Shown here one piece after another: positions 8,944 to 34,827 of a stretch of DNA of 34,950 nucleotides (positions within the stretch are counted from its first letter, which is position 1; the number at the start of each line of letters is the position of its first letter). Made by a program: the position numbers and the translations under genes. The DNA lies in the IMG/VR virus record IMGVR_UViG_3300025120_000231, positions 1-34,950 of that record, one strand, 5' to 3'. The DNA comes from a virus. The notes below the pieces were generated by a model. The model had not been told where the DNA came from and ran no database searches. It saw only the letters and a program-made list of their open reading frames with translations.

Positions 8944-9367
8944 GTATAGGATTCTCAGATTGAGCAAGATAGCCTCGAAAGGTCTCATTAAGAGCAGCAA
9001 GATCGGTAGCTACTTTAGATACTCGGCGTTGCTCACCTTTCATTTTATCAAAAAGTGTATCTGCTTCAGCATTACCAATTGCATATGAAATAGAATTAGG
9101 ATCTTCACTATCATTAAGGCTTTTAAGGAACGCATCACCACTTGCTATCCAACCTTTAAGTGTATTAACCATTGCAGCATTAGCTTCGCCCATTGCTTCT
9201 GCAGCTTTAACAGCAGGATCAACTTCAGCAATTTCTGTATCTGCTTCCATATCAACATCAAAATCTTCTGAAGAAGTATCATCGTCAAGTTCAAGCTCGA
9301 AAGCTTCTTTCTCGTCTTCAATATCCTCTGTGATAGCTTTAAAGAATCTCTTTTCAAATTTACTCAT
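8930..9367 (-). CDS. Acidic 145-aa protein, hypothetical (late)
   Basis: I choose the start at 9367 (MSKFEKRFF), because it is 5 nt after a minus-strand TAAATA; the upstream in-frame codons read through that promoter. The first half is highly acidic (DDDTSSEDFDVDMEADTE), and the rest is Ala-rich helical (DPAVKAAEAMGEANAAMV). This resembles prohead-core or scaffold-associated proteins in composition only. It is the only minus-strand gene in the left third and is driven by a bidirectional late promoter shared with the gene at 9402. Confidence 0.75.
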   Translation of the reverse strand: MSKFEKRFFKAITEDIEDEKEAFELELDDDTSSEDFDVDMEADTEIAEVDPAVKAAEAMGEANAAMVNTLKGWIASGDAFLKSLNDSEDPNSISYAIGNAEADTLFDKMKGEQRRVSKVATDLAALNETFRGYLAQSENPILKGV

Positions 9368-9372
9368 GTTAA

Positions 9373-9394
9373 TATTTAGTCTCGGGCATAAATA
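9373..9394. promoter_or_regulatory. Divergent late promoter pair
   Basis: TAAATA reads leftward at 9378-9373 (5 nt before the minus ATG at 9367) and rightward at 9389-9394 (7 nt before the plus ATG at 9402). Only 10 bp separate the two cores, so two late promoters share a 34-bp intergenic space. Confidence 0.65.
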
Positions 9395-9401
9395 ATAATA
9401 C

Positions 9402-9728
9402 ATGAATGTTGCAAGTAATCCGTATTATGTTGGTCCTGCCAAAAATCCTGTTAATGCTCAACTAAGTGTTAAAGATCAGGAACTTCAATATAAGAACGAC
9501 GAAAAATTTCAGAAAGCCCCTCCTATTATGCCACACGAACTAGAACAAATTACAGCTACTCTTGGAAATACATTTGTATCACTTGCCGAACTACAGCGTA
9601 TGCTGGAAAATGTTAAACAAAATGAGACAGTAGATGAGGAATATGTAAGCGACCTGCAGGATAAAATTGATCGCATTAATAATCTTATACTTGAACTACC
9701 AGAGCAACTTGCTAAACTATCATTATAG
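9402..9728 (+). CDS. 108-aa coiled-coil protein, hypothetical
   Basis: A polar N-terminus (NPYYVGPAKNPVNAQL) is followed by two predicted helices (HELEQITATLGNTFVSLAELQRML and YVSDLQDKIDRINNLILELPEQL) with heptad-like leucines, so a short coiled coil or helical hairpin is likely. The ATG lies 7 nt after a TAAATA late element, which marks it as a late, perhaps structural or assembly, gene. I do not recognise the family. Confidence 0.7.
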   Translation: MNVASNPYYVGPAKNPVNAQLSVKDQELQYKNDEKFQKAPPIMPHELEQITATLGNTFVSLAELQRMLENVKQNETVDEEYVSDLQDKIDRINNLILELPEQLAKLSL

Positions 9729-9731
9729 TAG

Positions 9732-9759
9732 TTGCAACTACTCCAAAAGATACTATACT
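9732..9759 (+). promoter_or_regulatory. Sigma70-like promoter, 7 nt before ATG
   Basis: TTGCAA at 9732-9737, a 16-bp spacer, and TATACT at 9754-9759; the ATG is at 9767. Spacing and leader length are identical to the helicase promoter at 56-83. Confidence 0.55.
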
Positions 9760-9766
9760 ATAGTAT

Positions 9767-10138
9767 ATGTTTAGATCGCTCTTATTAACTGCAGTCGTAT
9801 CAACGTTATTTGCTTTCGGATTAGCAAACCTAATGGGTTTCTGGCATGCCTTTGCACTTACTACTGGAGTGCAGTTTGTTGTTTTTTGGTTTGTTAATTC
9901 TTTTAGTGTGACTAATAAAGAAGCTTTATATGCAGAGTTTGAAAGTGAAATGGATGCTGTATTATCCCTAAGTAGAGTATCAGCCCAATGCCCGTGCGGT
10001 GATTATACTTTTGATGTAGATGTCTTCGCGAATACAGAGAATGTTTTTAGATGTCCTAAGTGTAATAATAATGTAGAGCTTGGAATGATGAAGATACCTG
10101 TTCTACAAACTAATCCTGAAGAAGTAACAGGAGAATAA
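9767..10138 (+). CDS. Membrane protein with C-terminal zinc ribbon
   Basis: The 123-aa protein has two hydrophobic segments, about residues 4-23 (SLLLTAVVSTLFAFGLANLM) and 27-45, which form a helical hairpin in the inner membrane. A soluble tail follows with CPCG (75-78) and CPKC (96-99), a likely zinc ribbon of about 20 residues between knuckles. With both termini cytoplasmic, the ribbon would face the cytoplasm. The family is unknown. It is expressed from its own promoter and sits in the envelope-oriented accessory cluster with the lipoprotein and the outer-membrane protein. Its TAA stop forms part of the next gene's TAAATA. Confidence 0.75.
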   Translation: MFRSLLLTAVVSTLFAFGLANLMGFWHAFALTTGVQFVVFWFVNSFSVTNKEALYAEFESEMDAVLSLSRVSAQCPCGDYTFDVDVFANTENVFRCPKCNNNVELGMMKIPVLQTNPEEVTGE

Positions 10139-10141
10139 ATA
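10136..10141 (+). promoter_or_regulatory. Late promoter core overlapping a stop codon
   Basis: TAAATA begins with the TAA stop of the membrane-protein gene and ends 5 nt before the lipoprotein ATG at 10147. Confidence 0.55.
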
Positions 10142-10146
10142 CTTAT

Positions 10147-10470
10147 ATGTGTAAATTTATAACTGCATTTATTGCATTGTTTCTGGTAAGCTGTGATGGT
10201 ACGTATACATCTTATTCTTATGATCCGACTCCGACAACTACTGTAAGGCATATACCTACTCAAACTTTATTCGCACGCGAACGGCTTAGATATACTACAA
10301 GTCAGTATTATGTTCCTTACTACGGAGCATATCGGTATAGTACTTACTGCCCACCAACATATCGGTATAGTTCTCGGCCAGATGTTCCATTATGGTCGCG
10401 AACAACTCATAAACACACGTCAAGACCTGTTCGTGTGCGTACAAGCAAGTATGAGAGTAAATCTAAGTAA
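10147..10470 (+). CDS. Phage-encoded lipoprotein, Tyr/Pro/Thr-rich
   Basis: The 107-aa protein starts with a signal peptide (MCKFITAFIALFLVSC) whose lipobox LVSC places the lipidated cysteine at residue 16. The next residue is Asp, which in E. coli keeps a lipoprotein in the inner membrane; whether this host follows the rule is unknown. The mature part is rich in Tyr, Thr, Pro and Arg, with two RYS units (AYRYS, TYRYS) from a DNA direct repeat, and it ends very basic (RPVRVRTSKYESKSK). Candidate roles are superinfection exclusion or an outer spanin-like lysis partner. Neither is shown by sequence alone. Confidence 0.75.
   Translation: MCKFITAFIALFLVSCDGTYTSYSYDPTPTTTVRHIPTQTLFARERLRYTTSQYYVPYYGAYRYSTYCPPTYRYSSRPDVPLWSRTTHKHTSRPVRVRTSKYESKSK
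10328..10371 (+). repeat. 14-bp direct repeat within the lipoprotein gene
   Basis: CATATCGGTATAGT occurs at 10328-10341 and again at 10358-10371, a period of 30 bp (10 codons). It encodes the two YRYS units. Confidence 0.8.
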
Positions 10471-10498
10471 ACCATAAGGAACTATCATATAATTAGGT

Positions 10499-10540
10499 AT
10501 GGAGAATGATAAAAATAATCAATCGAAATACGAACTATAA
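10499..10540 (+). other. Mini-ORF of 13 codons after a TATAAT
   Basis: The 84-bp gap 10471-10554 holds a TATAAT at 10488-10493, 5 nt before an ATG at 10499 opening MENDKNNQSKYEL and a TAA stop. No good -35 is visible. It may be chance or a leader peptide before the 81-aa gene. Confidence 0.25.
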
Positions 10541-10554
10541 TACAATAATAATAC

Positions 10555-10800
10555 ATGAATAATAATATTACTCTAAATAAGAAAGATGGTACTACGGAAG
10601 AGATGACTCTAGAAGCTTTTTCGCGATGGGCATGCTTAGTTGAAGGCATTCAAGCAGTAGATCAGAAGTTAGTAGATGCAAAAGTACCTGATTCTGATAC
10701 GAAGTGGGTAAAGCCGCTTGCATTTGAAAAATATATTCAAGAACGTTATCATTCAATGCTTAGTGATGTACGCATTGAGCATCAGATCGGTAATATCTAA
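10555..10800 (+). CDS. 81-aa protein, hypothetical
   Basis: A small mixed-charge protein that begins NNNITLNKKDGTTEEMTLEAF and continues with helices (FSRWACLVEGIQAVDQKL, FEKYIQERYHSMLSDVRI). TATAAT at 10536-10541 is 13 nt upstream, with no clear -35. The gene ends 8 nt before the tRNA, so the tRNA may be part of the same transcript. I do not recognise the family. Confidence 0.7.
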   Translation: MNNNITLNKKDGTTEEMTLEAFSRWACLVEGIQAVDQKLVDAKVPDSDTKWVKPLAFEKYIQERYHSMLSDVRIEHQIGNI

Positions 10801-10808
10801 AATTTTAT

Positions 10809-10883: not shown

Positions 10884-10889
10884 ATTTAA

Positions 10890-10907: not shown

Positions 10908-10919
10908 AATATTATACAA

Positions 10920-10925
10920 TAAATA
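10920..10925 (+). promoter_or_regulatory. Late promoter core for the outer-membrane barrel gene
   Basis: TAAATA ends 4 nt before the ATG at 10930, so the predicted transcript would be leaderless. Confidence 0.55.
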
Positions 10926-10929
10926 CGAT

Positions 10930-11649
10930 ATGCTAAAAACTATTATATTAACAACGTTGGCTGCAGTTGGCTTTGTCTCTGCAGATATTACTGTACCTCC
11001 AATTGAGGTATCCTCTACTTATAGGGATACAGATGTTTGGCGAGGTGCGAAGTTTGGTGAAAGTGATAAAGTAACTGGTCTTAGTACTGGTTATGATTTT
11101 GACTTTGCACGATTGGAAGCTTCATTCTCTTATGCTGATAACTCTCAGCTTAATAACACTAATCTATCTGTTGGATTTACTCGTGATTTCTCTTTAGAAA
11201 GTGTCGGTGAGTTCTCAGCTGGAGTCGCTTATAAGCGTTATACTGGAGGAACTGATCTTGCAGGTGATGTCACTAGTGAAATTGGAGTTTCTCTTGCTAA
11301 GGAGCTTTTTGAAACTAATATTACAGGTACCCAATACTTTGCTACTGAAGGTAACGGATTGGGTTACTTTGAACTTACAGCTAAACGTTCAATTGATCCA
11401 TTTCCATTTGTACTTGGTAATGAAGTGCTTATTGATCTAACTGCTACTGTTGGTTATAGCTTTGATGAGTCAGAGTTTACTCACACACAACTAACCTTTA
11501 GTAAAGATTACGAGTATAACTATTTTGGAGGAATTACCCTTACACCATTTGTTTCATTCGTAAATGTAGCATCTGATACTGTTGGTACCATCTATGCTGG
11601 ATCAGATGATGAAACTCTTACAGGAGTTTCCTTTAGGAAGTTCTTTTAA
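10930..11649 (+). CDS. Outer-membrane beta-barrel protein, porin-like
   Basis: The 239-aa protein has a signal peptide of about 18 residues with a VSA cleavage site before DITVPP. The mature part alternates hydrophobic and polar residues in strands separated by short turns (DFARLEASFSYAD, NTNLSVGFTRDF, EFSAGVAYKRYTGG, ALTATVGYSF-like patterns) and ends GVSFRKFF. A C-terminal Phe is the hallmark of proteins inserted by the Bam machinery. The early STYRDTDVWRG resembles the start of small TorF-type putative porins. It is expressed late and alone, between a TAAATA and a strong terminator. It could alter the host surface, for example to block reinfection or change permeability; this is inference. 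A virion role is less likely given the signal peptide. Confidence 0.8.
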   Translation: MLKTIILTTLAAVGFVSADITVPPIEVSSTYRDTDVWRGAKFGESDKVTGLSTGYDFDFARLEASFSYADNSQLNNTNLSVGFTRDFSLESVGEFSAGVAYKRYTGGTDLAGDVTSEIGVSLAKELFETNITGTQYFATEGNGLGYFELTAKRSIDPFPFVLGNEVLIDLTATVGYSFDESEFTHTQLTFSKDYEYNYFGGITLTPFVSFVNVASDTVGTIYAGSDDETLTGVSFRKFF

Positions 11650-14436: not shown

Positions 14437-15855
14437 TTATGAATATTCTGGAAATACTATTCTTCTGAGGGTCTCGTGCTGCTGGGTTAAGCCACATAAG
14501 TAGCTATCTTCTGTACCACAAGATAACGTGTAATATGGGCACCCAACAAAGGCTTCCCAGTCAGTAGAAGATAGGGGTGTATATACATTAAGAGTAACAC
14601 GTGAAGAATCTGTATCTTTGTAAAAGGTAGCACCACCATTAGATTTAGTATCAGTAACATACGGATAACCATCTGGTGCTATAGCACTTAGTGCAAGTTC
14701 TGCTTGCTGGTTATTAATAGAATAACTTGATAAAAGGCCGGTAATAAATGTAGAACGTCCTGATCCTTCATAGTCATATATACTATTACCTACATATTCA
14801 GTATCATATACCATATTGTTTTCGTAGCTATAAACAAATCTAGTAGGGAGTCTGAAAGATGGTGTATTCCAACGTATTTCAACATCACCTATAAAGGCAG
14901 AGATACCATAAAGAGTAGTCGATGGAAAAACACCTCTGCTGAAATTAGTTATATCAGATCCTAAAGCACTTAAACCGCAATAATCATTAGGACATCCAAT
15001 ATCTGGTTCAATACCTAAAAAAGGTAAATTTTGTTTTTCTTCCGTATTAGGTGAACCTAATATACTAGGTGCACTAGGTGGTTTTAAACTAGCTTTATTA
15101 TTTGTAATAGGTGCAGTAAATGTAGTAGAAAGAACTTCATTCGTAGTAATAGAGTCATTCTTACCCTCGACGTGAAAATTAGATACTACGATAGTACCGT
15201 TAGCGTTACTAGATGTTAATGGTTTACAGAATGTAACACCTGGTCTGTATCTTGTGAAAGCATTAATTTGTGGTCCGGCAATATCTGCTTTAAGTAAGTT
15301 GGTGTAGAAGATATCACCTTGCGCTTTATAATCAACTTGGAGTCTTCTACCATAGTTACCGAGACGAGCTCTTATTGTCTTAACACCACTATCTGTAAGA
15401 TTAAATGCACTTATAGTCTCGTTAATGTTAAGATACTTATAAGGGTTGTTTGCATCAACTGTAGTACTACGAGATGAATCAACTCCACGTACAGATATAC
15501 TATTTATTTTACGTAAAGCAGGATTGATACCATCTCTAGTAGAGCTATCTACATATGTCTTAGGTAAAGCAAAGCTGCCTAAACTATCTAAACCTATACC
15601 TATAATCGCACCGCTTAGTGCATCATTCGCATCGGCTGCGAAACCTGTAACAGCACCGGAATAGCCTAAATCAGTACCATTACCTCCACCAGAAAACGTT
15701 GTATATGCATTTTGCAAGAACATACAGAAGCCTATCTCGTCAGAAACCTCCCAGTTACTTAATTGATAAGTAAATGACCAGGTAATATCAAACTGAGGTG
15801 ATAAACCATCTTCGAAAATTGCTACTGATGTAGCAGATAGTGGTAGATTAGACAT
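14437..15855 (-). CDS. Tail fibre/adhesin-associated protein, hypothetical
   Basis: I start it at the ATG at 15855 (MSNLPLSATS), 9 nt after a TAAATA, rather than the in-frame GTG at 15861; this gives 472 aa. The N-terminal two thirds look beta-rich, with aromatic and Gly residues (WSFTYQLSNWEV, FSGGGNGTDLGYSG) in a legume-lectin or concanavalin-like pattern including VDYKAQGDIFY. Residues about 323-442 are a domain shared with the neighbouring 905-aa protein. It precedes that gene by 3 nt, so the two are probably co-translated and may assemble together. No enzyme motif is seen. Confidence 0.75.
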   Translation of the reverse strand: MSNLPLSATSVAIFEDGLSPQFDITWSFTYQLSNWEVSDEIGFCMFLQNAYTTFSGGGNGTDLGYSGAVTGFAADANDALSGAIIGIGLDSLGSFALPKTYVDSSTRDGINPALRKINSISVRGVDSSRSTTVDANNPYKYLNINETISAFNLTDSGVKTIRARLGNYGRRLQVDYKAQGDIFYTNLLKADIAGPQINAFTRYRPGVTFCKPLTSSNANGTIVVSNFHVEGKNDSITTNEVLSTTFTAPITNNKASLKPPSAPSILGSPNTEEKQNLPFLGIEPDIGCPNDYCGLSALGSDITNFSRGVFPSTTLYGISAFIGDVEIRWNTPSFRLPTRFVYSYENNMVYDTEYVGNSIYDYEGSGRSTFITGLLSSYSINNQQAELALSAIAPDGYPYVTDTKSNGGATFYKDTDSSRVTLNVYTPLSSTDWEAFVGCPYYTLSCGTEDSYLCGLTQQHETLRRIVFPEYS

Positions 15856-15864
15856 TAACACCTA

Positions 15865-15870
15865 TATTTA
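15865..15870 (-). promoter_or_regulatory. Late promoter core (AGATTAAATA type)
   Basis: On the minus strand AGATTAAATA ends 9 nt before the ATG at 15855. AGGTG in the short leader is one of the few Shine-Dalgarno-like sequences in the window. Confidence 0.6.
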
Positions 15871-17522: not shown

Positions 17523-17527
17523 ATTAG

Positions 17528-17534
17528 TATTTTA
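17528..17534 (-). promoter_or_regulatory. Variant late promoter TAAAATA
   Basis: TAAAATA on the minus strand ends 5 nt before the ATG at 17522, matching the geometry of the canonical sites but with one extra A. It fills the 12-bp gap to the upstream gene. Confidence 0.35.
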
Positions 17535-18581: not shown

Positions 18582-19208
18582 TTAAGATGTTCTTTGCCAT
18601 ACATACAATCCGAATGATGGTGGCATATTATTATGTGGAGTTCCGCTTCCAGTAGAAGCTGAAGTAAATGTATTGACTGTGGCTTGTCGACCAACAGCAT
18701 CACGTTGCTGGTTATTAGAAACACCCTGTCCGAAAGCACTACCATCAATACCAGCATTATTACTGAGTTGGTCTAGACCGTGACTATGGGAAGCTAACTC
18801 AGCTGTAGTAAGTGGGTGATTATATTTACCAGTAGTGTCATTACCAGCTGGAATTGTTTTAGCTTCAGTACCGTCATTACCAGCCCCTTCTCCAGCTATA
18901 AACCGACCTGTAGCAATTTGTATCCAAGTAGTACCTGTAAATCTCGATCCTGGATTAGTATTATCTTGCGAAAATGTAACAGACCCAACAGGGTATATTG
19001 CTTCAGCTATAGCAGTTTTAAAAGCATCACCAAGTGGACCGTCTACATCAATACCTTTACCTGCTTGACCTACCTTAAGAGCACTTTTATTACCAAACCC
19101 ATCGTATACATCTTCTTGTCCAGTAGCTGGTAACGCTGCACCTTTCGCATGCAGTACACCAACGTAAGTTTTGCTGATGTTAGTATTAGTTAAGGAAGTA
19201 CTTGCCAT
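18582..19208 (-). CDS. Short tail fibre-like collar protein
   Basis: I start it at the ATG at 19208 (MASTSLTNTN), 5 nt after a TAAATA; the longer frame would read through that promoter. The 208 aa contain the collar-type signature YPVGSVTFS at about 72-80, WIQIATGRFIAGEG at 95-108, HSHG at 141-144 and a C-terminal HNNMPPSFGLYVWQR. T4 gp12 uses an HxH motif to bind a central metal ion in its trimer, and the HSH here could do the same. It probably forms part of a short fibre or a baseplate-attached spike contacting the cell surface. Confidence 0.8.
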   Translation of the reverse strand: MASTSLTNTNISKTYVGVLHAKGAALPATGQEDVYDGFGNKSALKVGQAGKGIDVDGPLGDAFKTAIAEAIYPVGSVTFSQDNTNPGSRFTGTTWIQIATGRFIAGEGAGNDGTEAKTIPAGNDTTGKYNHPLTTAELASHSHGLDQLSNNAGIDGSAFGQGVSNNQQRDAVGRQATVNTFTSASTGSGTPHNNMPPSFGLYVWQRTS

Positions 19209-19213
19209 ATGTA

Positions 19214-19219
19214 TATTTA
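19214..19219 (-). promoter_or_regulatory. Late promoter core
   Basis: TAAATA on the minus strand ends 5 nt before the ATG at 19208, in the 33-bp gap between genes. Confidence 0.6.
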
Positions 19220-24618: not shown

Positions 24619-24624
24619 TATACT

Positions 24625-24630
24625 TATTTA
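24625..24630 (-). promoter_or_regulatory. Late promoter core (AGATTAAATA type)
   Basis: On the minus strand AGATTAAATA ends 6 nt before the ATG at 24618. Confidence 0.6.
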
Positions 24631-25192: not shown

Positions 25193-28113
25193 TAGATTGT
25201 AACAGTAAAGTTGTTAGTATTGCGTGTGAACGAACCAGAGTTGGCTGATATGGAACCAAACATTGAACTTAATCCAAATGTAGTCGATCTTAATATTTCC
25301 TCTTCATCTTCATATTTATATATACTCTGTAGAGTGAAATCATTATTTACTTGTCTAAATGAAACGTCAATAAAATGTGACATGTCATTAGGATCATTTA
25401 CAATATACGTTAGCTTAAATATATCATTTCGTTTATTATATGCTATCTTCGGTGTATGAACCTCTTCAATTGTATAGTTTCTCGTAGCACTTACACCTAA
25501 ACTCAAAGCAGAAGTATTAACATCAAATACACTAAGAGTAGTAGATGCTGTATCAGCTGGATACACCTTATTTACATGATTATCTAGTATAGAGTATTCA
25601 TAAATCTCTGGATAAACTGTTAAATAATTTCTTGGAGAAACATCACAATCATTAGCACCAATAGTTTGAAATCTTGCAAAATATACTTTACCGGTACCCT
25701 CAACGTAGAATCTATTTGAGAACGTTTCTGCTCCTATAGAGCTATTAACGCTATATAATGTGTTGACTGTACTAGGCTTAGTAAACTCTGCATCTTTATA
25801 TTCAATCTTATCTATTAGTAAGTTAGATTTAGTTTCTAAGAAAATAGTATTCTGTATAATATCGAAATCTATTAAAGCTAGATTTAAATCTGTTTGAATA
25901 CTAGTTGAATACTTTTGAAGTATGTTTGAAAGTGCAGTAGAGAGTGGTTGAGAATCAGAATATGAACCATTCTTTACATATAATCTACCATCCAAGGCTT
26001 TACGCTCTTCAGTAGTAAGAGTTAGATCTTGAGAAGATAATGTTGATAATACAGTAGCACCACGAGAGTCAGGATTATCAAGATATCGATAATTATCTGA
26101 ATAAATAAAATCGTTAGGTAGATTTACTTCGTCAGTAAATAAGCCACCGTCATAATTAGTATAAGGGCTTCCAGCTGAAAGATAATTACGAACATCTGTT
26201 GCGAACTCTAATATGCTAAGATCAGTTATAATATTAAATTCATCTTCGGTAATAATATTCATATCTACAGCAGATAGTATAGCTTGCTCTACCGCAAAAG
26301 TACCTTCTGCAAGAACGGTGTAGTAGTAATTTAAAGGGGATGGAAATCCAGGTCCTATTCCGGATAATGGGTTAGGTAACTCACTACCATCAAAGAAAGT
26401 AAATGCTCCACCATCACGCCAGAACGGTTTAAGATTTCTAGTCTTCTTAATGAGATCTTGGTATGGTGAAAATTCTCTAAAGTATAATGTTAAAAAGGTA
26501 TTCAGTTGTGACATACCATTTGTATTAGCCGTTAATCCTGATCTAATAGTATTACCATTAACGCTAGCTGTACTATAATCAAAATTATAACCCTCGTTTC
26601 TATCCCAGAATGTATGACCATCTAATAGCAGATTTTTAATATAGTCTTGATCAGATATTCTCGGCTGTAAGGGTGTATATTTAAGTAAAGCGTATTCGTT
26701 ACCAAATATATCTGTTTGATATTTATCAATAACCCCTTGATCAAAAAGATCAGTAAAGTTTAGCTTATAACTAATATTATTTAGCTCTTTTAACTGAGTA
26801 CTATTACGCTCTTTTGTAGTATATGATTCAAAGGTAGTTACTTTATTAGTAATTTTTGGATCACCTGAAGCTACACCACTTGAAACGTTTCGTACATTAT
26901 CCCGGTAATCAAACTTATAGTATATAGGATAGCTACTTACTGGGTTAACTGATACATTACCATACTTATTAGGATCTGGAAAAATAACAAATTCATTACT
27001 TAAAGCAGAGAGGTTAATTGAATAGGTATATGTTTCAGCTTGTAGTTTAAATAAGCCAATATTATCAGGTTTAAAGTTCAAACCTATATCTCTTAATAAC
27101 TTAACATCATTTGATTCTACTTGTGCTGCATCTGCACCTTGTAAATTTAATGCATTAGAAGTTGGATTATCAGCAGTAATTAACAATCCAGATGTTGGTG
27201 GTATAGTGGTTGCATCTACATAATAGATATCAGTACCTAAGTACTTTTTAATTAATGAGCGTTTAAGACTATAGACATCGGCTAGACTAAGACCACCAGA
27301 TTTATACGCATTAGATACTTGTACAAGATCATTATCCGGATCGCATATAGCGTCAAACTCTTCTGGAGTGATAACCGGAGGATTAATCTTAAAGTTTCTA
27401 ATAGCACCTATAAAGTTTTCTTGACCAGTAATAGCTTCAACTGCAAGAGGATCTAAATAATACTTTTTATCAATATTATTAATATTATTAGCTTCACCGT
27501 CAGATGGTAAATCAAAATAAGTACCATACACATCAACAAATTCTTCTATCTCTATACCTAAACCACTTACCGAAGCAGCGATAGTTGCTGTTTGTGCTTC
27601 TTTAGAATCCTCTGCAGTAAATATAAAATTATAAATATTATCAAAAATTGCTTTCTCAACACCTGTTGTGCTCCCTTTAAGTTTATTTCTATCGATAACA
27701 TACTTACCTTCATCTCTCCTTTTCTTATAAAAGAGTGCAATATCTTTTAGCCTATTTGCAAAGAACGGGATAGCTATGTCAAGATCAGCTGAATTATTAA
27801 AGTCTATATTCTCGAGAAATCTTTTCTCACTCTCAGTCGTATAGCTAATAACAATTTCTTTAATAAATTGCTGGTAATAATCTTTAAATTGTGTTTTTTG
27901 TTCTTCTTCTGATATATCTTGAAGTGAATACCAGTTTTGAAGGTAAGAGCTATAGAAAGAGCTATATTCTTCCGGTGAATAATCTGCTTGTGTATAATTT
28001 ATAAAGTCTAGAAAGGAGAACGGGGTAATATTATCTCTATAATCGTCATTCTCAATTTTTGAGTTTGTGATAGAGTAGTTAACTACAACTGTTCTGAGTG
28101 ATTGGTTAGACAT
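25192..28113 (-). CDS. Large virion structural protein, hypothetical
   Basis: The 973-aa protein has no domain I can name. The N-terminal third is helical and charged (YSPEEYSSFYSSYLQNWYSLQDISEEEQKTQF), the middle mixed, and the last third beta-rich (AETFSNRFYVEGTGKVYFARF). Position and size fit the large baseplate-wedge or peripheral baseplate proteins that follow gp25 and gp6 in marine T4-like phages, the place occupied by gp7, gp8 and gp10 in T4. Equivalence to any one of these is not established. A TAAATA lies 9 nt before its ATG. Confidence 0.75.
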   Translation of the reverse strand: MSNQSLRTVVVNYSITNSKIENDDYRDNITPFSFLDFINYTQADYSPEEYSSFYSSYLQNWYSLQDISEEEQKTQFKDYYQQFIKEIVISYTTESEKRFLENIDFNNSADLDIAIPFFANRLKDIALFYKKRRDEGKYVIDRNKLKGSTTGVEKAIFDNIYNFIFTAEDSKEAQTATIAASVSGLGIEIEEFVDVYGTYFDLPSDGEANNINNIDKKYYLDPLAVEAITGQENFIGAIRNFKINPPVITPEEFDAICDPDNDLVQVSNAYKSGGLSLADVYSLKRSLIKKYLGTDIYYVDATTIPPTSGLLITADNPTSNALNLQGADAAQVESNDVKLLRDIGLNFKPDNIGLFKLQAETYTYSINLSALSNEFVIFPDPNKYGNVSVNPVSSYPIYYKFDYRDNVRNVSSGVASGDPKITNKVTTFESYTTKERNSTQLKELNNISYKLNFTDLFDQGVIDKYQTDIFGNEYALLKYTPLQPRISDQDYIKNLLLDGHTFWDRNEGYNFDYSTASVNGNTIRSGLTANTNGMSQLNTFLTLYFREFSPYQDLIKKTRNLKPFWRDGGAFTFFDGSELPNPLSGIGPGFPSPLNYYYTVLAEGTFAVEQAILSAVDMNIITEDEFNIITDLSILEFATDVRNYLSAGSPYTNYDGGLFTDEVNLPNDFIYSDNYRYLDNPDSRGATVLSTLSSQDLTLTTEERKALDGRLYVKNGSYSDSQPLSTALSNILQKYSTSIQTDLNLALIDFDIIQNTIFLETKSNLLIDKIEYKDAEFTKPSTVNTLYSVNSSIGAETFSNRFYVEGTGKVYFARFQTIGANDCDVSPRNYLTVYPEIYEYSILDNHVNKVYPADTASTTLSVFDVNTSALSLGVSATRNYTIEEVHTPKIAYNKRNDIFKLTYIVNDPNDMSHFIDVSFRQVNNDFTLQSIYKYEDEEEILRSTTFGLSSMFGSISANSGSFTRNTNNFTVTI

Positions 28114-28122
28114 CGATATAAA

Positions 28123-28128
28123 TATTTA
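28123..28128 (-). promoter_or_regulatory. Late promoter core
   Basis: TAAATA on the minus strand ends 9 nt before the ATG at 28113. Its first three bases are the TAA stop of the upstream 749-aa gene. Confidence 0.6.
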
Positions 28129-30375
28129 GTTATCAAAAAGGTTCAAGCCTTCGTAAAGTGAGTTAGCAAAGATATTAGACACAATACCGTTATCTTTTGA
28201 CCAATCATTGTAAGATGTAATACCATAAGTTAACGTATTGTTAGGATCGTCGAAATTAATAATAGAATCAGTTATATCACCAACAGAACTAGCTTGATAG
28301 TAGAATGAGTAAATATCTGTGATTTCTCTACTCCCACCTGATAGTAATGGCCATCCCCAAGTTTCATTATAATCACTAAGATTATAGAATTGAGTAGACG
28401 TCATGACATCTTCAGTTAATAGACCAGATAATGCTTCTGTTAGAACCGAGCAATTAGATGCTCGTTCTAACGTTATAAACTCACCCTCTGATATACGCTC
28501 TGGTGAAGTAGCTGTTAATATGCCTGTAACTGTACGATATACTATACCAGATGGTATAGTAATAGTTGGAGCAATTCTTGCACTTAACGGTAACGTTGTA
28601 TTTAGCGTTACATACTTACCACTATATAGTTCATTCGCTACTATTGGATCCCCAGGAACTATAATACTGTTAGGTGTAAGTTTTTCACCTAAATTATAAC
28701 CATAAAAATTATTAGATCTATAACCATACGATTGATACTGCGTTCTATCTCTATTTCGTTTACCAAAAAGCTTTGACTTACTAATAGAAAGTAAATCCAT
28801 TAATCTTGCGAGCTTCGGAGGCAGAGAGTATTTATTAAGCTTTGGTAAATCTAGCATTTGAAGCAATCCATCTAGCTGCTCGATATTACTCTCATCTATA
28901 ACTGTATTATTCTCTAAAAAGTTTTGAATCTTCTCATAGGTAGCCTTACCTATTGAATCTTGTGTAGAACTCAAGTCACCAAATATTGACCCTAAAAAGT
29001 CTTTCATTAACACTCTTGCATCCGTAAATAACGGTTGAATAGCTATTTCTTTAAATGCATCTTCAAAATCTATATCTTCGTTCTGCTTTGCTATTGTATA
29101 GTAGCTACTAGGGTTAATAGTAAATGTATTACTTGCACCGTTTAAGAAAACGCCATTATAGTTACCCTGTGCACCGGATAGGTATACGTTGTTAAGAGGT
29201 ACAGTAGTATTGGATACAAAATATCCTTTATAAAACCCACCATTTGATAAGGATGAAAGAGATCCAAAATCTGACGTGAACTCTGCATCATAAACTGTAG
29301 CACCATCAGTTAACTTAAAATTCATTGCACTAATACTACCTTGAGTTGCACTTAATACCGGAGCTGATCTATTACTAAAATTATCTTGATCCTTTACCTT
29401 GGCAACAAATGCTATTTTAGTTCCTGCAAACTTCTCTGAGTTTATATCAAATACACTAAAGTTATCAGCCCCTTCACCATCAACACCATTTGATGAAAAA
29501 TCCAAACTATTATATTGTGCATTTGATGTAATAACCGCTTTCATACCATAGTTAGTAGTATTTGCATACTCAAATATATCACCTTGCTGAAAGCCAAATA
29601 TTAAATTATAATTATCAACAAAATCACTCTTAAAGTATACGTCAGATGTACCAGAAACACCAGCAAAGAAAGCATCAACATCATTCTTGTCTGTATATAT
29701 AATCTGGTTATTTGCATCTAACTTAATGTATATAGATTTATCGATAGTATCAATAGTATTAACGTTAAATGTTTCAACTATACCATTAGAAGTGAGTATT
29801 TGAACGAAAGAATAGCTAGGATATAAATGTCCATATGCTAATTTATCATAACCACTTCTAAAGAAGTCATATTCATTGCTAGATAGAGTTGCGCCTGACG
29901 CGTAAGGTACTATAGTGGATAGACCAGTATTTAAAGTTCTGTAAGAATTATAACGCTTTACAGTAATTGGGTTAACTACTTTACCTGCTTTATGATTTAT
30001 ATCTGCTGTACTAGTAACTACTAACTCATCCTGAACAAAATCTCTAATGTTAACATCAGCATGAAAAGTATCAAGATAACCATTACCAGCATCGTCATAT
30101 AGAAAGCAATTAACTCTATATGAACCAGGATGGTCAAATGCATGAGTAGCAGATACAGCTTCAGCGGTAGTACCATCTCCAAAATCCCAGACTATACGCT
30201 TATTAGATACAAAGTCTTGAATAGTTGGATCTAAGTTAGGTATAAAAGAAAGAGGAGCAAAGGGTAACGCAAATCCTTCATATGTTTCCTCACCACTAAT
30301 GTTCTTCACATAGAAGAAATTATACAATAGATCAAATTCACCTGATTGATCGAGTTGTAAAGAACTGAGCGACAT
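28126..30375 (-). CDS. Baseplate-associated protein with N-terminal PKD domain
   Basis: The 749-aa protein has a clear PKD domain at about residues 60-110: IVWDFGDGTTAE, then THAFDHPGSYRVNCFLYDD. PKD domains are beta-sandwiches used for surface binding and spacing. A long beta-rich body follows. A helical region near 480-560 (FLGSIFGDLSSTQDSIGKA, GLLQMLDLPKLNKYSLP) may anchor it to the wedge. It sits directly after gp6. The ATG is only 6 nt after TAAATA. Confidence 0.8.
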   Translation of the reverse strand: MSLSSLQLDQSGEFDLLYNFFYVKNISGEETYEGFALPFAPLSFIPNLDPTIQDFVSNKRIVWDFGDGTTAEAVSATHAFDHPGSYRVNCFLYDDAGNGYLDTFHADVNIRDFVQDELVVTSTADINHKAGKVVNPITVKRYNSYRTLNTGLSTIVPYASGATLSSNEYDFFRSGYDKLAYGHLYPSYSFVQILTSNGIVETFNVNTIDTIDKSIYIKLDANNQIIYTDKNDVDAFFAGVSGTSDVYFKSDFVDNYNLIFGFQQGDIFEYANTTNYGMKAVITSNAQYNSLDFSSNGVDGEGADNFSVFDINSEKFAGTKIAFVAKVKDQDNFSNRSAPVLSATQGSISAMNFKLTDGATVYDAEFTSDFGSLSSLSNGGFYKGYFVSNTTVPLNNVYLSGAQGNYNGVFLNGASNTFTINPSSYYTIAKQNEDIDFEDAFKEIAIQPLFTDARVLMKDFLGSIFGDLSSTQDSIGKATYEKIQNFLENNTVIDESNIEQLDGLLQMLDLPKLNKYSLPPKLARLMDLLSISKSKLFGKRNRDRTQYQSYGYRSNNFYGYNLGEKLTPNSIIVPGDPIVANELYSGKYVTLNTTLPLSARIAPTITIPSGIVYRTVTGILTATSPERISEGEFITLERASNCSVLTEALSGLLTEDVMTSTQFYNLSDYNETWGWPLLSGGSREITDIYSFYYQASSVGDITDSIINFDDPNNTLTYGITSYNDWSKDNGIVSNIFANSLYEGLNLFDN

Positions 30376-30381
30376 ATAACA

Positions 30382-30387
30382 TATTTA
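30382..30387 (-). promoter_or_regulatory. Late promoter core (GATTAAATA type)
   Basis: GATTAAATA on the minus strand ends 6 nt before the ATG at 30375. Confidence 0.6.
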
Positions 30388-30403: not shown

Positions 30404-32248
30404 TTACAACCGTCTTATTGCTATCTTATTAGTAATATTAGCAATATTGTAAAAATATGCATACTCAAAATCTTCTAACTGGTAGTTGAGAGATTGAATA
30501 GTTCTATCACTATCTTTGTAATCTGGATTCCAAACAACAAAGCTCAAATTTGGAATTTCTGCATCACCGTTAACGGTATGTAGTTCTGTTACTCCTTGAA
30601 TATTAAGTATATCATTAGTCATAGCAGCTACATCAATTACATCACCAAGCTGCAGCTTACTAAAGTAATTAATAAGAGTAGTCGAAACAGCATTTCTTAT
30701 TGATCCATTATTTGAAGCTTGATTTTTATCAACTGTAACACGTATTATACTATCTTGTACAATTTCATCAACACTATCACTGTCTCTGAAGCTAGCTATT
30801 CCTGTATTAGAAGCACCAAACGCAAAAGCTTTAAATAAAGCATCCGTAACGACGACATTATGAGTTATGTCTTTCTTATTGTTACAAAAATCAGCAATAA
30901 TTTGCTTTTGTGCAGCATTAAGATATTTTGGTGTTAAACTATTTAATGTAGAATCTCCACTAGGAACTGTATAGATATAAACGTTGTTAAAGCTAGAAGA
31001 AGTTGAAAACTGAACCTGAGAGAATAACATACGTGCATCATCATTACCTTGACCGAGACCTTGTTCAGCGTAATATCCCAATACCCTTGATGTAAATTCA
31101 TCGTTAGATAGAACTTTTACATCTTTGGTGATATTATTGAAATTTCTATTTACCTGATATTCATAATCCTCTTTTGTAACTAACCGGTTCTGTGAAGCAA
31201 AGACTTTCGGCGCGTTAGCTTTTATATCTTCTGTAGTTTCTGCCTTCTTTGGTGGTAAAGTGCCATTGGTATTATTAAGAGTTACATTGGCAATATCAAT
31301 TGAATTAATTAAATTTTGATCATCGTTATATAGTATACTCTGTATAGCTTCAAAATTAGTCGAACCGTATAAGTTAAATGAAGCATTAGCTAAAGCATCT
31401 GGCCCAGTTATGCCTGCTTCATTATCAGAGATTACATAGAATATAAGTACAGTATCGTTACTTTCTAACTGCTTACCGTTTAGATTATTACCAAACTTAA
31501 ACTCATAATTACCAGATGAATTTAGTCGCTTTTCATAACTTTTACTCTCAGCTGATTTCAGGAACAGAGAAGCGCACTCATACCACTCAGACCAACCCCC
31601 GGTTACAGCATTTTTAACAAATACGCTAAATGTGTTATCTGAAATAAACTTAGTATTATTTAGATTTGTTACACTCTGTATAAGTTGAGGAGATGTAAAG
31701 CTATCGACGAGAGTTATATTCTCATATGGTTCTCCTGTTGCTGCAAAGGATGCTTCTGTAATAGCACCTTGATAAAGAGTATTGTTTGATGGTGATACTG
31801 CTTCTACTGCAGTGTTAGTTACCTTTTGAAAGGTAATATCTTCAGTTGTTATAAAAGAATTACCAGCAGCTACAACAGAACTAAATCTTGGTATTGTATA
31901 AACATTAGCAGGAATATTTGTAGCAGATAAATTAAAATTAAGAAGAGCTGTCTGATCACCAAGAGGTTTGTACCCAATATTGCTAACAAGCTTATTCATG
32001 TTTTCATAAATAGTAGCAGTATTAAACGTAGATTCGTTAGATGTTGTATTAAGCTGGAAAAGCAATACATGATACATATAGGCTACAACATCGATAAAAG
32101 CACTAAAATTAGAACCTTCAAAGTTTTGATCTGTAAATGTTTCATTCTCATTTAACCTTTCAATAATAAGACTCTTAAGAGTATTTGCATCGAAGGTGAG
32201 ATATGCGTTTTTAGGAAGTTTGTAATCTGTGAAGTCTTGTAAGCTCAT
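30404..32248 (-). CDS. 6: Baseplate wedge subunit, gp6 family
   Basis: The 614 aa compare with 660 for T4 gp6, the dimeric core of the baseplate wedge (baseplate J-like family). The N-terminus has FSAFIDVVAYMYHVLLFQLN and ENMNKLVSNIGYKP, the typical gp6/J helical start. The centre has KFGNNLNGKQLESNDTVLI, and then TTEDIKANAPKVFASQNRLVTKEDYEYQVNR, which is a hallmark of this family. The C-terminal part has IRVTVDKNQASNNGSIRNAVSTTLINYF. It lies immediately after gp25, the order expected for a wedge module. Its late promoter is at 32264-32269. Confidence 0.9.
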   Translation of the reverse strand: MSLQDFTDYKLPKNAYLTFDANTLKSLIIERLNENETFTDQNFEGSNFSAFIDVVAYMYHVLLFQLNTTSNESTFNTATIYENMNKLVSNIGYKPLGDQTALLNFNLSATNIPANVYTIPRFSSVVAAGNSFITTEDITFQKVTNTAVEAVSPSNNTLYQGAITEASFAATGEPYENITLVDSFTSPQLIQSVTNLNNTKFISDNTFSVFVKNAVTGGWSEWYECASLFLKSAESKSYEKRLNSSGNYEFKFGNNLNGKQLESNDTVLIFYVISDNEAGITGPDALANASFNLYGSTNFEAIQSILYNDDQNLINSIDIANVTLNNTNGTLPPKKAETTEDIKANAPKVFASQNRLVTKEDYEYQVNRNFNNITKDVKVLSNDEFTSRVLGYYAEQGLGQGNDDARMLFSQVQFSTSSSFNNVYIYTVPSGDSTLNSLTPKYLNAAQKQIIADFCNNKKDITHNVVVTDALFKAFAFGASNTGIASFRDSDSVDEIVQDSIIRVTVDKNQASNNGSIRNAVSTTLINYFSKLQLGDVIDVAAMTNDILNIQGVTELHTVNGDAEIPNLSFVVWNPDYKDSDRTIQSLNYQLEDFEYAYFYNIANITNKIAIRRL

Positions 32249-32269: not shown

Positions 32270-32271
32270 AT

Positions 32272-32757
32272 CTACACCGCTACATACCCATCTCGGTTAA
32301 GAGAAGCATTTAAAGTTAAATTATAGATATCTAATGTGGGTATACTGAATTCAATAGTAATATCATATTCTGCCATATCCGGATTTCCTACGATATCTAA
32401 TTTATTAAGAATCATACGAGGTTCTTGAACCCCTAAATTATTATATATGTAATAACCTAAAAAATAAGCAGTTGTTGAATTTATTGGCTCGAACAGATAT
32501 CTTCTAAAATCTAGTCCAAGCCTAGGGTTAAGTAACTTTTGACCGGGTGATGTTGTAAGAATATTTTTAATAGAATTAATTACAGCTTGACCGTCTTGAA
32601 TTTCATTTAAATCTTTAAGTTCACTCGTACCATAAAGCTCCGTTCTCTTAAATCGGCTAGCCGCAAGATCGAACTTTATATCTTTGTATAGATACCCGCT
32701 CTCCAGTGATTTCTTTTCACTAGCTGGGATCTGTAAATTATCTAACCTTACTGCCAT
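32272..32757 (-). CDS. 25: Baseplate wedge subunit, gp25 family
   Basis: The 161 aa compare with 132 for T4 gp25, which clamps the sheath-baseplate wedge; related proteins occur in type VI secretion (TssE). Conserved elements are AVINSIKNILTTSPGQKLLNPRLGLDFRRYLFEP and the family's EPR motif (VQEPRMIL), followed by a beta-rich end. The N-terminal extension of about 45 residues precedes the usual domain. It is the first gene of the 21-kb leftward tail operon, behind a near-perfect TATAAATA element. Confidence 0.93.
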   Translation of the reverse strand: MAVRLDNLQIPASEKKSLESGYLYKDIKFDLAASRFKRTELYGTSELKDLNEIQDGQAVINSIKNILTTSPGQKLLNPRLGLDFRRYLFEPINSTTAYFLGYYIYNNLGVQEPRMILNKLDIVGNPDMAEYDITIEFSIPTLDIYNLTLNASLNRDGYVAV

Positions 32758-32765
32758 AAAATGTG

Positions 32766-32793
32766 TATAAATATTTATATGAGTGACTAAATA
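32766..32793. promoter_or_regulatory. Divergent late promoters with 14-bp palindrome
   Basis: TATAAATATTTATA (32766-32779) is a perfect palindrome. Its minus-strand TATAAATA drives gp25, with the core 14 nt before the ATG at 32757. A separate plus-strand TAAATA at 32788-32793 ends 5 nt before the ATG at 32799. The whole divergent control region is 41 bp. Confidence 0.7.
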
Positions 32794-32798
32794 ATAGT

Positions 32799-33323
32799 AT
32801 GGCTAAATCGAACAAATTCACAACTCTTTTGGAGTCTTATATGCGACGCAACCAACGTGGTGGCTTTCTTGTAGGAGACGTATTCAAATTTAATGATAAT
32901 TTTAAAAGTGACGATGGTTATAAAGATCTCGCTGATATAGTTAAGAAATCAATTGACTCGATGATTGATTCAGGTCTTAATATTCGTGTTATTAATATTA
33001 AAGACACTTCTCCTGCTAGGTATCCTGCATCAGATCAAACATCATCACTTGATGTAGTTCTTGATATTGCACTTGATACAGGAGGTGGGCGCTATACCGA
33101 TGAATGCTCAATTCCTGGTGGTTTAGGTAGTTGTGAGCAATATGCTCCTAATTTACTTCCTATTCCAGATGAGCAGCGCCGTAAGAGCAAAGTTAACATT
33201 AAACCTGAAGAGGTAGAGGAGAATGAAGAGAATCTTTCAAATAAGACAGACCGCGGAGATGGTAAGCTTACACAAACAGAACTTACTCTTAAGAAAGAAA
33301 GCTATACTCAACAGTATCTCTAA
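32799..33323 (+). CDS. 174-aa protein with RGGFLVGD motif, hypothetical
   Basis: The protein begins MAKSNKFTTLLESYMRRNQRGGFLVGDVFKF. I recall a similar RGGF-x-GD segment from small proteins of marine T4-like phages, with no known role. The centre is a beta/alpha domain (GLNIRVINIK, SLDVVLDIALDTGGG), and the tail is acidic and polar. The start resembles that of the interrupted gene at 34330 (MAKxN, late promoter with the same 5-nt spacing). Its stop overlaps the next ATG (TAATG). Confidence 0.75.
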   Translation: MAKSNKFTTLLESYMRRNQRGGFLVGDVFKFNDNFKSDDGYKDLADIVKKSIDSMIDSGLNIRVINIKDTSPARYPASDQTSSLDVVLDIALDTGGGRYTDECSIPGGLGSCEQYAPNLLPIPDEQRRKSKVNIKPEEVEENEENLSNKTDRGDGKLTQTELTLKKESYTQQYL

Positions 33324-33487
33324 TGCCTAAAGAAGTCGCGACCACGAAGTGGTGCCCTGTCTGTAGTAGTTCGCAGAAGATTAAAGGGTTCCGTTCGTTC
33401 TATTGTTACGATTGTTGGAAAGCAGCCGGGAAGCCTAAAATAGAGCCATTATTTAAGGCAATGGATAAACCTAAAACTAAGAAGTAA
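33323..33487 (+). CDS. 54-aa zinc-ribbon protein
   Basis: This short frame starts at the ATG that overlaps the previous stop (33321-33325) and ends with TAA at 33485-33487, directly against the convergent gene's stop. It reads MPKEVATTKWCPVCSS.. with CPVC at 11-14 and CYDC at 28-31, a compact treble-clef or ribbon zinc site. The C-terminus is basic (KPKTKK). Coupling to the 174-aa gene and the well-formed cysteine pairs support a real gene. The function is unknown; nucleic-acid or protein binding is possible. Confidence 0.75.
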   Translation: MPKEVATTKWCPVCSSSQKIKGFRSFYCYDCWKAAGKPKIEPLFKAMDKPKTKK

Positions 33488-33745
33488 TTACTTCTTTTTC
33501 TTCCAGCTCTTTCTAGCTGGACCCCTCTTTTTGTACTTCTTGTTTTTAATCTTCTTACAAGCTGCATGAGTTGGTCTACATGCAGGGTATGAAGCACCTT
33601 TCTTACCAGCCTTTTTACGACCACAAGGACCACCGGTCTTACAGTTGATCCAGCCTTTAAACTTTTTTCCTGTCTTCTTATCAGTACGAGTCTTGAACCA
33701 ATCTCGTAGGTTCTCACTTAATTGTAACGTCTCTTGCTGAGTCAT
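33488..33745 (-). CDS. Basic Cys-containing protein, DUF5872-like
   Basis: The 85-aa protein is extremely Lys/Arg-rich, with four cysteines in WINCKTGGPCGRKK and ASYPACRPTHAACKK (C35, C41, C56, C63). The motif CKTGGPCGRKK followed by PACRPT is one I associate with small basic phage proteins of the DUF5872 kind; their function is not known to me. It may bind DNA or zinc, for example as a capsid-packaged basic protein. Its ATG overlaps the upstream stop by one base (TAATG), so it is co-translated with the 172-aa protein. The tail PARKSWKKKK is nearly pure charge. Confidence 0.8.
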   Translation of the reverse strand: MTQQETLQLSENLRDWFKTRTDKKTGKKFKGWINCKTGGPCGRKKAGKKGASYPACRPTHAACKKIKNKKYKKRGPARKSWKKKK

Positions 33746-34263
33746 TACTTAATTTTACCTCCTCGGTTAACACATTTCTGAACATACCCGGAAGCATATG
33801 CAGAAGGCCAAACGTCATACTTACGTTTAGCTTTAGCTTGACATTTAGCGCGAGTCTTAGATACTTTCTTTTCAGCATCTTCTTCCTCACTCTCAGACTT
33901 CTTCTTCTTACCACCCTTCATGTTAGCGCACCAGTGATACATCTTACCCTTTTCACCACCATACTTCTTAGCTCTCTTACGAAGCTCAGTTACAGAACCT
34001 TTACAGCTGGCTCCAGCACGCTTAACACGTCCAGGACTACTCTCAGCATCCTCAGAAGGTAACTCCTCATCAGAATGTTTACTGTTATTTAACTTATCAC
34101 CAGCCTTTTTAGCTGCCTTATAAGCCTTACTACCTTTGCTAGCACTCTTACCACCACGCTTTTTCTTAGCGTTGATGTTAGCCCATAAACCTTCAGTAAA
34201 AAAATCTACATCTTCAATAACATACTCCTTAAGTAGCTGGTTATATAGCTCATCAAACTGCAT
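33745..34263 (-). CDS. Basic Cys-containing late protein, partner of the 85-aa protein
   Basis: I start it at the ATG at 34263 (MQFDELYNQL, 172 aa), because tandem TAAATA elements lie directly upstream; the longer frame would include them. An N-terminal segment has FFTEGLWANINAKKKRGGKSAS, a motif I associate with small basic phage proteins. Two Cys-containing basic repeats follow: RAGASCKGSVTELRKRAKKY with YHWCANMKGG, and RAKCQAKAKRKYDVWPSAYASG with VQKCVNRGGK. Acidic stretches separate them. The same YDVWPSAYASG box is familiar from marine T4-like phages. The role is unknown; a nucleic-acid-binding virion protein is plausible. Confidence 0.8.
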   Translation of the reverse strand: MQFDELYNQLLKEYVIEDVDFFTEGLWANINAKKKRGGKSASKGSKAYKAAKKAGDKLNNSKHSDEELPSEDAESSPGRVKRAGASCKGSVTELRKRAKKYGGEKGKMYHWCANMKGGKKKKSESEEEDAEKKVSKTRAKCQAKAKRKYDVWPSAYASGYVQKCVNRGGKIK

Positions 34264-34268
34264 ATTTA

Positions 34269-34276
34269 TATTTATA
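34269..34276 (-). promoter_or_regulatory. Late promoter TATAAATA (minus)
   Basis: TATAAATA on the minus strand ends 5 nt before the ATG at 34263. A second TAAATA overlaps the ATG itself (34263-34268). Confidence 0.65.
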
Positions 34277-34316
34277 TCTAAGATGTTAAAATTCTCTTTA
34301 TTTTTAGCACCTTTGA

Positions 34317-34324
34317 TATAAATA
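34317..34324 (+). promoter_or_regulatory. Late promoter TATAAATA (plus)
   Basis: A perfect TATAAATA ends 5 nt before the ATG at 34330. With the minus site at 34269-34276 it forms a 66-bp divergent late control region. Confidence 0.7.
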
Positions 34325-34329
34325 CTAGT

Positions 34330-34827
34330 ATGGCTAAACACAATACCAATTTTGGAAAAGATCTAAAAAATCTTTCAGAGCTGGCATTCTCGGTCCTTAA
34401 TGAGAATACCAATGAAGTTATTAATGGCGGAGCTGCTTACAAGGGCGGTGATGTCGAGCATGATTGAGCGTCTCATATTAAAGCTCCTCCGTTTGGGGAG
34501 TCAATTAAAAGGATTCTTCACCACAATCTTACAGAAGAAGGTATTGTTGAAGAATATTATGTAGAGCATAATGGCAAATTAGTAGGTGTCCTTGCTGAGG
34601 ATATTACTGTGATTCAATTAAATGAGCATGGCAGCAAACCATCAGATGAAGAGTCCAATGCTGAGAAAAAGAAGCGTGAGAAAGGCGCTCTTAAAGATGA
34701 TAAGGCTCATATTAAAGATCTTGAAAAAGATGAAGAAGATGATAAAGAGGATGAAGACGAAGAGACTGTAGTAAGTCCACTACACGGTGCTCGTCCTAAG
34801 CTTATCGGAGTACCTATCTTTAGGTAA
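34330..34827 (+). pseudogene. Late gene interrupted by an in-frame TGA
   Basis: One continuous frame runs from the ATG at 34330 to the TAA at 34825-34827, except for a single TGA at 34465-34467 (codon 46). Before it the frame reads MAKHNTNFGKDLKNLSELAF.., ending GGDVEHD. After it, it continues ASHIKAPPFGESIKRILHHNL.., then a very acidic stretch (DLEKDEEDDKEDEDEE), and closes GARPKLIGVPIFR. Codon quality is equal on both sides, and there is no good restart codon nearby. Read through, it would be 165 aa. Options are a recent nonsense mutation, a sequencing or assembly error, or recoding of the TGA, since other genes here use TGA as a normal stop. It has an excellent late promoter. I do not recognise the family. 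Confidence 0.65.
34484..34500 (+). other. Hairpin shortly after the in-frame TGA
   Basis: CTCCTC pairs with GGGGAG (one T-G wobble) around a 5-nt loop CGTTT. It starts 16 nt after the TGA. Downstream hairpins at this distance can stimulate stop readthrough or act as bacterial SECIS elements, but this one lacks the known SECIS bulge features. Confidence 0.35.

Follow-up and report, generated by a model that had tools for sequence, protein, structure and literature searches.

Late promoters placed at the start codon predict leaderless late mRNAs in an uncultured clade of T4-superfamily phages

We analyzed a 34,950-bp IMG/VR record (IMGVR_UViG_3300025120_000231; "the window" refers to this whole stretch), a fragment of an uncultured T4-superfamily phage in which TAAATA, the core of the T4 late promoter box, repeatedly ends a few nucleotides (nt) ahead of a start codon. 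The window very probably belongs to an uncultured clade of this superfamily whose promoters are positioned such that transcription would begin at the start codon itself or no more than about 4 nt away. That the late mRNAs are leaderless (0-4 nt) and made from T4-type late promoters is a prediction from sequence comparison, and a strongly supported one.

A preliminary description of this DNA listed TAAATA-to-ATG gaps, i.e., the number of nt between box and start codon, for twelve genes on both strands, and all twelve proved correct on recheck (Table 1). It also named a comparison with shuffled sequence as a test, and the spacing did not arise equally often there: when starts were called by a rule that ignores the box, 11 of the 36 window genes carried a box at gap 4-9, against a mean of 0.59 and a maximum of 5 in 2000 shuffles of the upstream sequences. 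For window ATGs opening at least 40 codons, TAAATA stands at gap 4-9 in 13 cases and at gap 0-3 in none, with about 1 expected, while fourteen other orderings of the same letters yield 1-7 sites at gap 4-9, the highest overlapping the same sites. As a word, TAAATA is not enriched in the window (87 found, 79 +/- 9 expected), nor is TATAAATA counted alone, yet TAAATA is enriched at gap 4-9; the signal thus lies in position rather than frequency, and the placement before ATG is not an effect of AT-richness. Beyond the twelve, an extra candidate precedes a GTG (Table 1), and a further one at ATG 5716 (+), at gap 8, sits within the upstream gene and is probably due to chance. A second TAAATA at 34263-34268 (-) overlaps the A of ATG 34263. 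The TAAATA core and its placement agree with the T4 type, but the full T4 sequence TATAAATA is found among the twelve boxes just in those of the genes starting at 34263 and 34330, the rest being mostly GAY/AACTAAATA or similar. Late boxes also lie on opposite strands in the very short intergenic spaces of three divergent gene pairs (9367-9402, 32757-32799 and 34263-34330), and those of the 9367/9402 pair are 10 bp apart.

The same placement recurs in IMG/VR relatives of the window, of which 71 were drawn from a gp6 scan and 80 from a helicase scan covering the replication region. In the gp6 region, the relatives share the window's peak at gap 5-6, with gaps 5 and 6 counted 109 and 89 times in close relatives and 82 and 38 times in distant ones, whose gp6 is just 32-44% identical, and with most other gaps much lower; the 80 replication-region relatives show the peak too, and the pattern extends across the clade. 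Because close loci overlap in descent, whole genomes were counted apart, giving gap-5 counts of 17 in G006, 16 in G007, 34 in G001 (206.6 kb), 33 in G003 (126.3 kb), 15 in G002 (138.7 kb) and 22 in G025 (154.6 kb). Of 1023 genes in seven clade genomes, 177 carry the box at gap 5-6; the pooled count for the cultured phages T4, Syn9, Mosig and Melnitz is 9 of 827 (Fisher p 2.6e-37), that for T4 and Syn9 alone is 0 of 442, and gap 20-30 accounts for 11 of the 1023 clade genes versus 66 of the 827. Orthologs retain box and spacing while their flanks diverge. Moreover, the structural genes gp13, gp17, gp18 and gp21 of the clade are preceded by boxes, which in gp13, gp18 and gp21 lie 5 nt ahead of the ATG. 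The major capsid gene gp23 (G025:114980-116512, G001:6914-8365), unlike these three, has no fused late box.

The late box of T4 occupies 8 bp at -13 to -6 (PMC2988020), which leaves five bases before +1, so that at gap 5 the transcript would begin with the A of ATG. Of 130 gap-5 ATG sites in the clade, 120 have T or C immediately ahead of the start codon, compared with a pyrimidine share of 28-68% for closely packed operon genes in these genomes. A pyrimidine at -1 is usual for bacterial transcription starts. Start codons at gap 5 are ATG at 130 sites (background 2.6) and GTG at 22 (1.1), with TTG at 1 (1.7) and CTG at 0; only the purine-first codons ATG and GTG are thus fused to the box. At longer gaps, counting six bases on from the box leads to a purine in 18 of 19 cases at gap 7, 10 of 10 at gap 8 and 7 of 9 at gap 9, as if the distance from box to start were held at six bases, which would give leaders of 2-4 nt. 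From this base pattern, transcription probably begins at the sixth base after the box. Collectively, spacing, initiator bases, start-codon choice, loss of Shine-Dalgarno (SD) motifs, conservation in the clade and the presence of gp55 in relatives support the earlier prediction of a start on or within a few bases of the ATG.

In the clade the TAAATA core lies at a T4-like distance, preceded mostly by AT, AC or CA where T4 boxes begin with TA; variants of the first bases have been reported, e.g., (a/g)C in Aeh1 (PMC2988020). The late sigma factor gp55 is encoded in G001, G003 and the close relative G025; a pattern scan reached mainly the distant branch, and the full G025 contig supplied the close-branch gp55, while phrog_272, tried as gp55, was the wrong family and gave no matches. 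The clamp loader gp44 was found in five relatives and in G025. By analogy with T4, the gp55 of the clade would be expected to recognize TAAATA.

SD 4-mers precede 5-11% of clade genes, compared with 63% in T4, 52% in Mosig, 65% in Melnitz and 32% in Syn9, and the 7.8% observed in G025 is at the level of chance (9.3% by shuffle). Operon-internal genes of the clade are also SD-poor. In the window, gene 33488-33745 (-) has GAGGAGG.

Start-codon-fused promoters are not confined to late genes. Sigma70-like TANNAT boxes peak at gap 6, with 37 in G001, 22 in G002, 12 in G006 and 13 in G025. A -10 hexamer spans -12 to -7, so that at gap 6 the ATG would once more supply +1, and pyrimidines again predominate at -1 in this early class. 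In a scan of the window and the G006, G007 and G025 contigs (L082-L089, L292-L299), an AGGAAC box a few bp upstream of TATAAT-N4-9-start was found at 17 promoters in G006, 5 in G025, 4 in G007 and 1 in the window, compared with 0-1 in scrambled controls, and this box looks like a clade-specific early/middle activator site. In G001 and G002 (L090-L100, L108-L114), a ATTAAAACC(G) box lies directly ahead of -10 boxes of the predicted leaderless type; it occurs 67 times in G001, 53 of them at such promoters, and 39 times in G002, 22 of them at such promoters. Both boxes may be activator sites of middle genes, which is a guess. We consider it likely that this whole branch of the T4 superfamily gave up leadered, SD-driven translation, its early/middle promoters (sigma70-like, some with AGGAAC or ATTAAAACC) and its late promoters starting transcripts on the start codon, matched to SD-poor hosts of the Planctomycetes-Verrucomicrobia-Chlamydiae (PVC) group.

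In the mechanism that we propose, a gp55-type late sigma, together with the sliding clamp, would recognize the TAAATA core at -11 to -6, and transcription would begin at the sixth base after the core, in most cases the first letter of an AUG or GUG codon. The resulting transcript would have neither leader nor SD, and the ribosome would start on its 5'-terminal AUG as on other leaderless mRNAs, for which an IF2/initiator-tRNA route is known (PMC10783764). Early and middle genes would reach the same outcome from sigma70-like -10 boxes 6 nt ahead of the ATG. The most likely match would be a host with SD-poor, partly leaderless translation, probably one of the Verrucomicrobiota or a related PVC bacterium.

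Other explanations of the spacing have to be weighed against this one. TAAATA could be a translation-initiation context, A/U-rich, unstructured or S1-binding, like the Kozak-like context of Bacteroidota, that lies in a longer leader and is no promoter; the missing SD and the SD-poor operon-internal genes would fit, and other start contexts are described for SD-less bacteria (PMC6847099). Such a context is nonetheless improbable, given a spacing of single-base precision that is tied to one particular word, with no equal peak for permuted AT words, and a box that is about 1.5-3 times commoner at divergent or well-separated clade genes than at tightly spaced operon genes. The match to the T4 late box, the presence of initiator bases and the exclusion of TTG and CTG also speak for a promoter. 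It is similarly improbable that the boxes are -10 elements of host-type sigma70 promoters and not gp55 late promoters, in which case the transcripts would be leaderless all the same. TTGNNN does occur about 16 nt upstream at some sites (24618, 30375, 1426), and the early promoters of the clade are sigma70-like and predicted to be leaderless, but the logo of 170 late sites has no -35 element, late sites are set apart from early ones by their word and by a gap of 5 versus 6, and the boxes stand ahead of structural gp13, gp17, gp18 and gp21 in a clade that encodes gp55.

Since start codons are predictions, the ATG could instead mark the transcription start only, with translation from a later codon behind a normal leader. 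This is very unlikely: ortholog N-termini begin at the same codon across relatives, GTG is used and TTG is not, and SD motifs upstream of the called starts are no commoner than chance. Chance in AT-rich DNA, combined with selective picking of starts in the preliminary description, would agree with the unenriched word count in the window but is already refuted by the shuffles and the relatives, and we give it almost no credence.

Several observations weigh against leaderless transcription from fused promoters as we propose it. The clade counts are partly dependent, some sites being inherited, and gaps of 6-9 imply leaders of 1-4 nt, not of zero. Some late genes are off the rule, including gp25 and gp6 of the window at gaps 14-15 and gp23 of G025, an exception to SD loss whose leader carries the SD-like AAAGGA. 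The start sites are sequence predictions, and the host is judged from two gene families only. The window itself has no gp55, gp33 or major capsid gene, with no search aimed at gp33, which is small and divergent.

The preliminary description offered two reasons for so short a spacing, a host that tolerates leaderless mRNAs or ribosome modification. The tolerant host is favored, in line with a putative PVC-type host and with SD-poor Verrucomicrobiales, while the sole candidate examined for ribosome modification, phage-encoded bS21, is present in Mosig and Melnitz but was ruled out by its absence from 13 clade records. PSCyt2/PSD1 (DUF1549/DUF1553) and/or DUF1501 genes occur in G006 and six other close relatives (L083:12151-15094 in G006; L019, L029, L039, L040, L041, L046) and may serve as auxiliary genes and mark the host. 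For the DUF1501 protein, 17 GTDB relatives at about 30-40% identity belong to Verrucomicrobiota, Planctomycetota or Hydrogenedentota, and the PSCyt2/DUF1501 genes suggest a Verrucomicrobiota or Planctomycetota host. Promoter-proximal genes in Verrucomicrobiales sequence (G019/G020) have no SD peak and an excess of TANNNT at gap 5-7, and Verrucomicrobiales thus look SD-poor and partly leaderless; similarly, Akkermansia and Verrucomicrobia bacterium IMCC26134 are listed as SD-scarce (PMC10783764). Planctomycetota was rejected as a translation match because, in contrast to Verrucomicrobiales, the single Planctomycetaceae genome examined shows a clear SD peak. Because of the PSCyt2/DUF1501 genes and the SD-poor Verrucomicrobiales, a Verrucomicrobiota host is our favored guess, with odds that we put slightly above even, and it could differ between branches. 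Binned phage contigs with gp6 in GTDB genomes gave no host match, and the closest cultured phages gave none either, with no cultured phage above about 37% identity.

As the preliminary description stated, T4 itself has ordinary leaders with SD: its boxes lie about 20-30 nt upstream of starts, as they do in the Syn9, KVP40 and P-SSM2 regions, and T4 gp18, gp20 and gp22 each have a box, a leader of about 25 nt and an SD. T4 late transcription is a textbook system in which late messages carry leaders with SD. The clade resembles the T4 late promoters (gp55/gp33/gp45, Straboviridae) in its TAAATA core without a -35 element, used on both strands and ahead of structural genes, and in carrying gp55, gp45, gp44 and the T4 morphogenesis set; it differs in the fusion of the box to the start codon, the loss of SD and the first two box bases. 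The promoter system would work like that of T4, and the new element is its placement relative to the gene. The nearest cultured relatives include marine T4-like phages (Kyanoviridae Syn9 and P-SSM2, pelagiphages HTVC008M and Mosig, and methylophage Melnitz), at about 28-37% amino-acid identity in gp6, gp17 and gp32, for which late boxes NATAAATA/TATAAAT have been reported (PMC2984593, PMC9004378). Unlike the clade, Syn9 has no gene at gap 5-6. TAAATA-N5-ATG forms a minor set in Mosig (MT647606; 6 called genes), Melnitz (MZ577097; 3) and HTVC008M (NC_020484; 14 raw matches), and leaderless late starts look like a minor class in pelagiphages and Melnitz. Mosig and Melnitz, unlike the clade, retain SD and carry bS21. 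The clade would thus be the extreme of a trait and no new type of system. Bacterial leaderless genes whose TANNNT box precedes the start by about 12 nt (PMC3160421) share the promoter box directly before the start codon, the lack of SD and the logic of the sigma70-like early genes of the clade, which differs from them in involving a phage late sigma system and in extending over early/middle as well as late genes of a single virus. In lambda, individual leaderless mRNAs are known (PMC3160421), with a likewise 5'-terminal start codon but in one gene, versus a genome-wide prediction here. We found no earlier report of such fused late promoters in an incomplete set of open-access papers.

A conserved clade with its late promoter fused to the start codon would be a natural setting in which to test the joint evolution of promoter placement and translation initiation when a phage lineage meets a host with other initiation rules. 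It also provides base-exact start-site predictions for many genes of uncultured phages, which would help to call gene starts and promoters in viral metagenomes more accurately; the prediction of late promoters is reported to have failed for pelagimyophages (PMC7029224). The placement may add a signal for host prediction, and leaderless late genes may be testable in culture through the minor sets of HTVC008M, Mosig and Melnitz.

The window carries T4-type replication genes in its left part (DnaB-like helicase, gp32-type single-stranded DNA-binding protein (SSB), gp45 clamp, exonuclease and primase) and tail genes in its right part (tail fibres and the gp6 and gp25 baseplate wedge). The T4 core genes gp6, gp25, gp45, helicase and SSB place it in the T4 superfamily (Caudoviricetes), and gp13, gp15, gp17, gp18, gp20, gp21, gp23, gp43, gp44, gp46, gp47 and uvsW were found in the relatives G025, G001 and G003. 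No near cultured relative was found, the window's gp6 being about 28% identical over 62% of its length and gp32 about 30-36%.

Table 1. Candidate promoters and associated genes in the window (gap, nt between box and start codon)
Feature	Position	Strand	Remark
TAAATA 1414-1419 and GTG 1426 of DHH phosphoesterase gene, gap 6 (extra candidate)	1414..1428	+	GTG fused in relatives too
Sigma70-like early promoter, TTGATT ... TATAAT, ending 8 nt ahead of ATG 2637	2601..2639	+	Read from sequence
Sliding clamp, gp45-like, platform of T4 late transcription	4639..5370	+	PHROG 223, 1.2e-13
TAAATA 9373-9378 and ATG of gene 8930-9367, gap 5	9365..9378	-	Ortholog in G006 also gap 5
TAAATA 9389-9394 and ATG of gene 9402-9728, gap 7	9389..9404	+	Divergent from box at 9373-9378
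Box and ATG of gene 10147-10470 (lipoprotein-like), gap 5	10136..10149	+	
AGGAAC-N5-TATAAT-N5-ATG, predicted clade-specific early/middle leaderless promoter type	10477..10501	+	
Box and ATG of gene 10930-11649 (outer-membrane-like by eye), gap 4	10920..10932	+	Gap 7 in relatives L035/L036
Box 15865-15870 and ATG 15855 of gene 14437-15855, gap 9	15853..15870	-	
Box 19214-19219 and ATG 19208 of tail protein gene 18582-19208, gap 5	19206..19219	-	Gap 5 also in G006
Box 24625-24630 and ATG 24618 of 1118-aa gene, gap 6	24616..24630	-	Gap 6 or 9 in 19 distinct relative upstream sequences
Box 28123-28128 and ATG 28113 of 973-aa gene, gap 9	28111..28128	-	Retained in some relatives only
Box 30382-30387 and ATG 30375 of 749-aa gene, gap 6	30373..30387	-	Gap 5-7 in relatives
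gp6-like baseplate wedge gene, box at gap 15	30404..32248	-	PHROG match; most close relatives have gap 6
gp25-like baseplate wedge gene, late and structural, with box at gap 14	32272..32757	-	PHROG match; exception
Box and ATG of gene 32799-33323, gap 5, divergent from gp25	32788..32801	+	Gap 5 in 16/17 distinct ortholog upstream sequences
Box 34269-34274 and ATG 34263 of gene 33745-34263, gap 5	34261..34274	-	Gap 5 in L012 ortholog
Box (TATAAATA 34317-34324) and ATG of gene 34330-34467, gap 5	34319..34332	+	

The distant relatives G001 and G002 encode 23-25 tRNAs each, one of them with the amber anticodon CUA (L091:3941-4013 in G001, L108:2757-2830 in G002). Wholesale amber recoding was considered on account of this tRNA and rejected because TAG remains the terminator of 14-15 genes in each genome; the amber tRNA reflects limited suppression and no full recoding. 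The accessory gene set of G001 (L090-L098) is large, with PARP, Thg1, polyA-polymerase-head, Clp protease, nicotinate phosphoribosyltransferase, ribonucleotide reductase and RNA ligase domains. In the window, an adjacent pair of tail-fibre genes at 15909-18569 shares a similar N-terminal segment (GELGYTTD...VGD), with an Mtd_N domain match in a relative.

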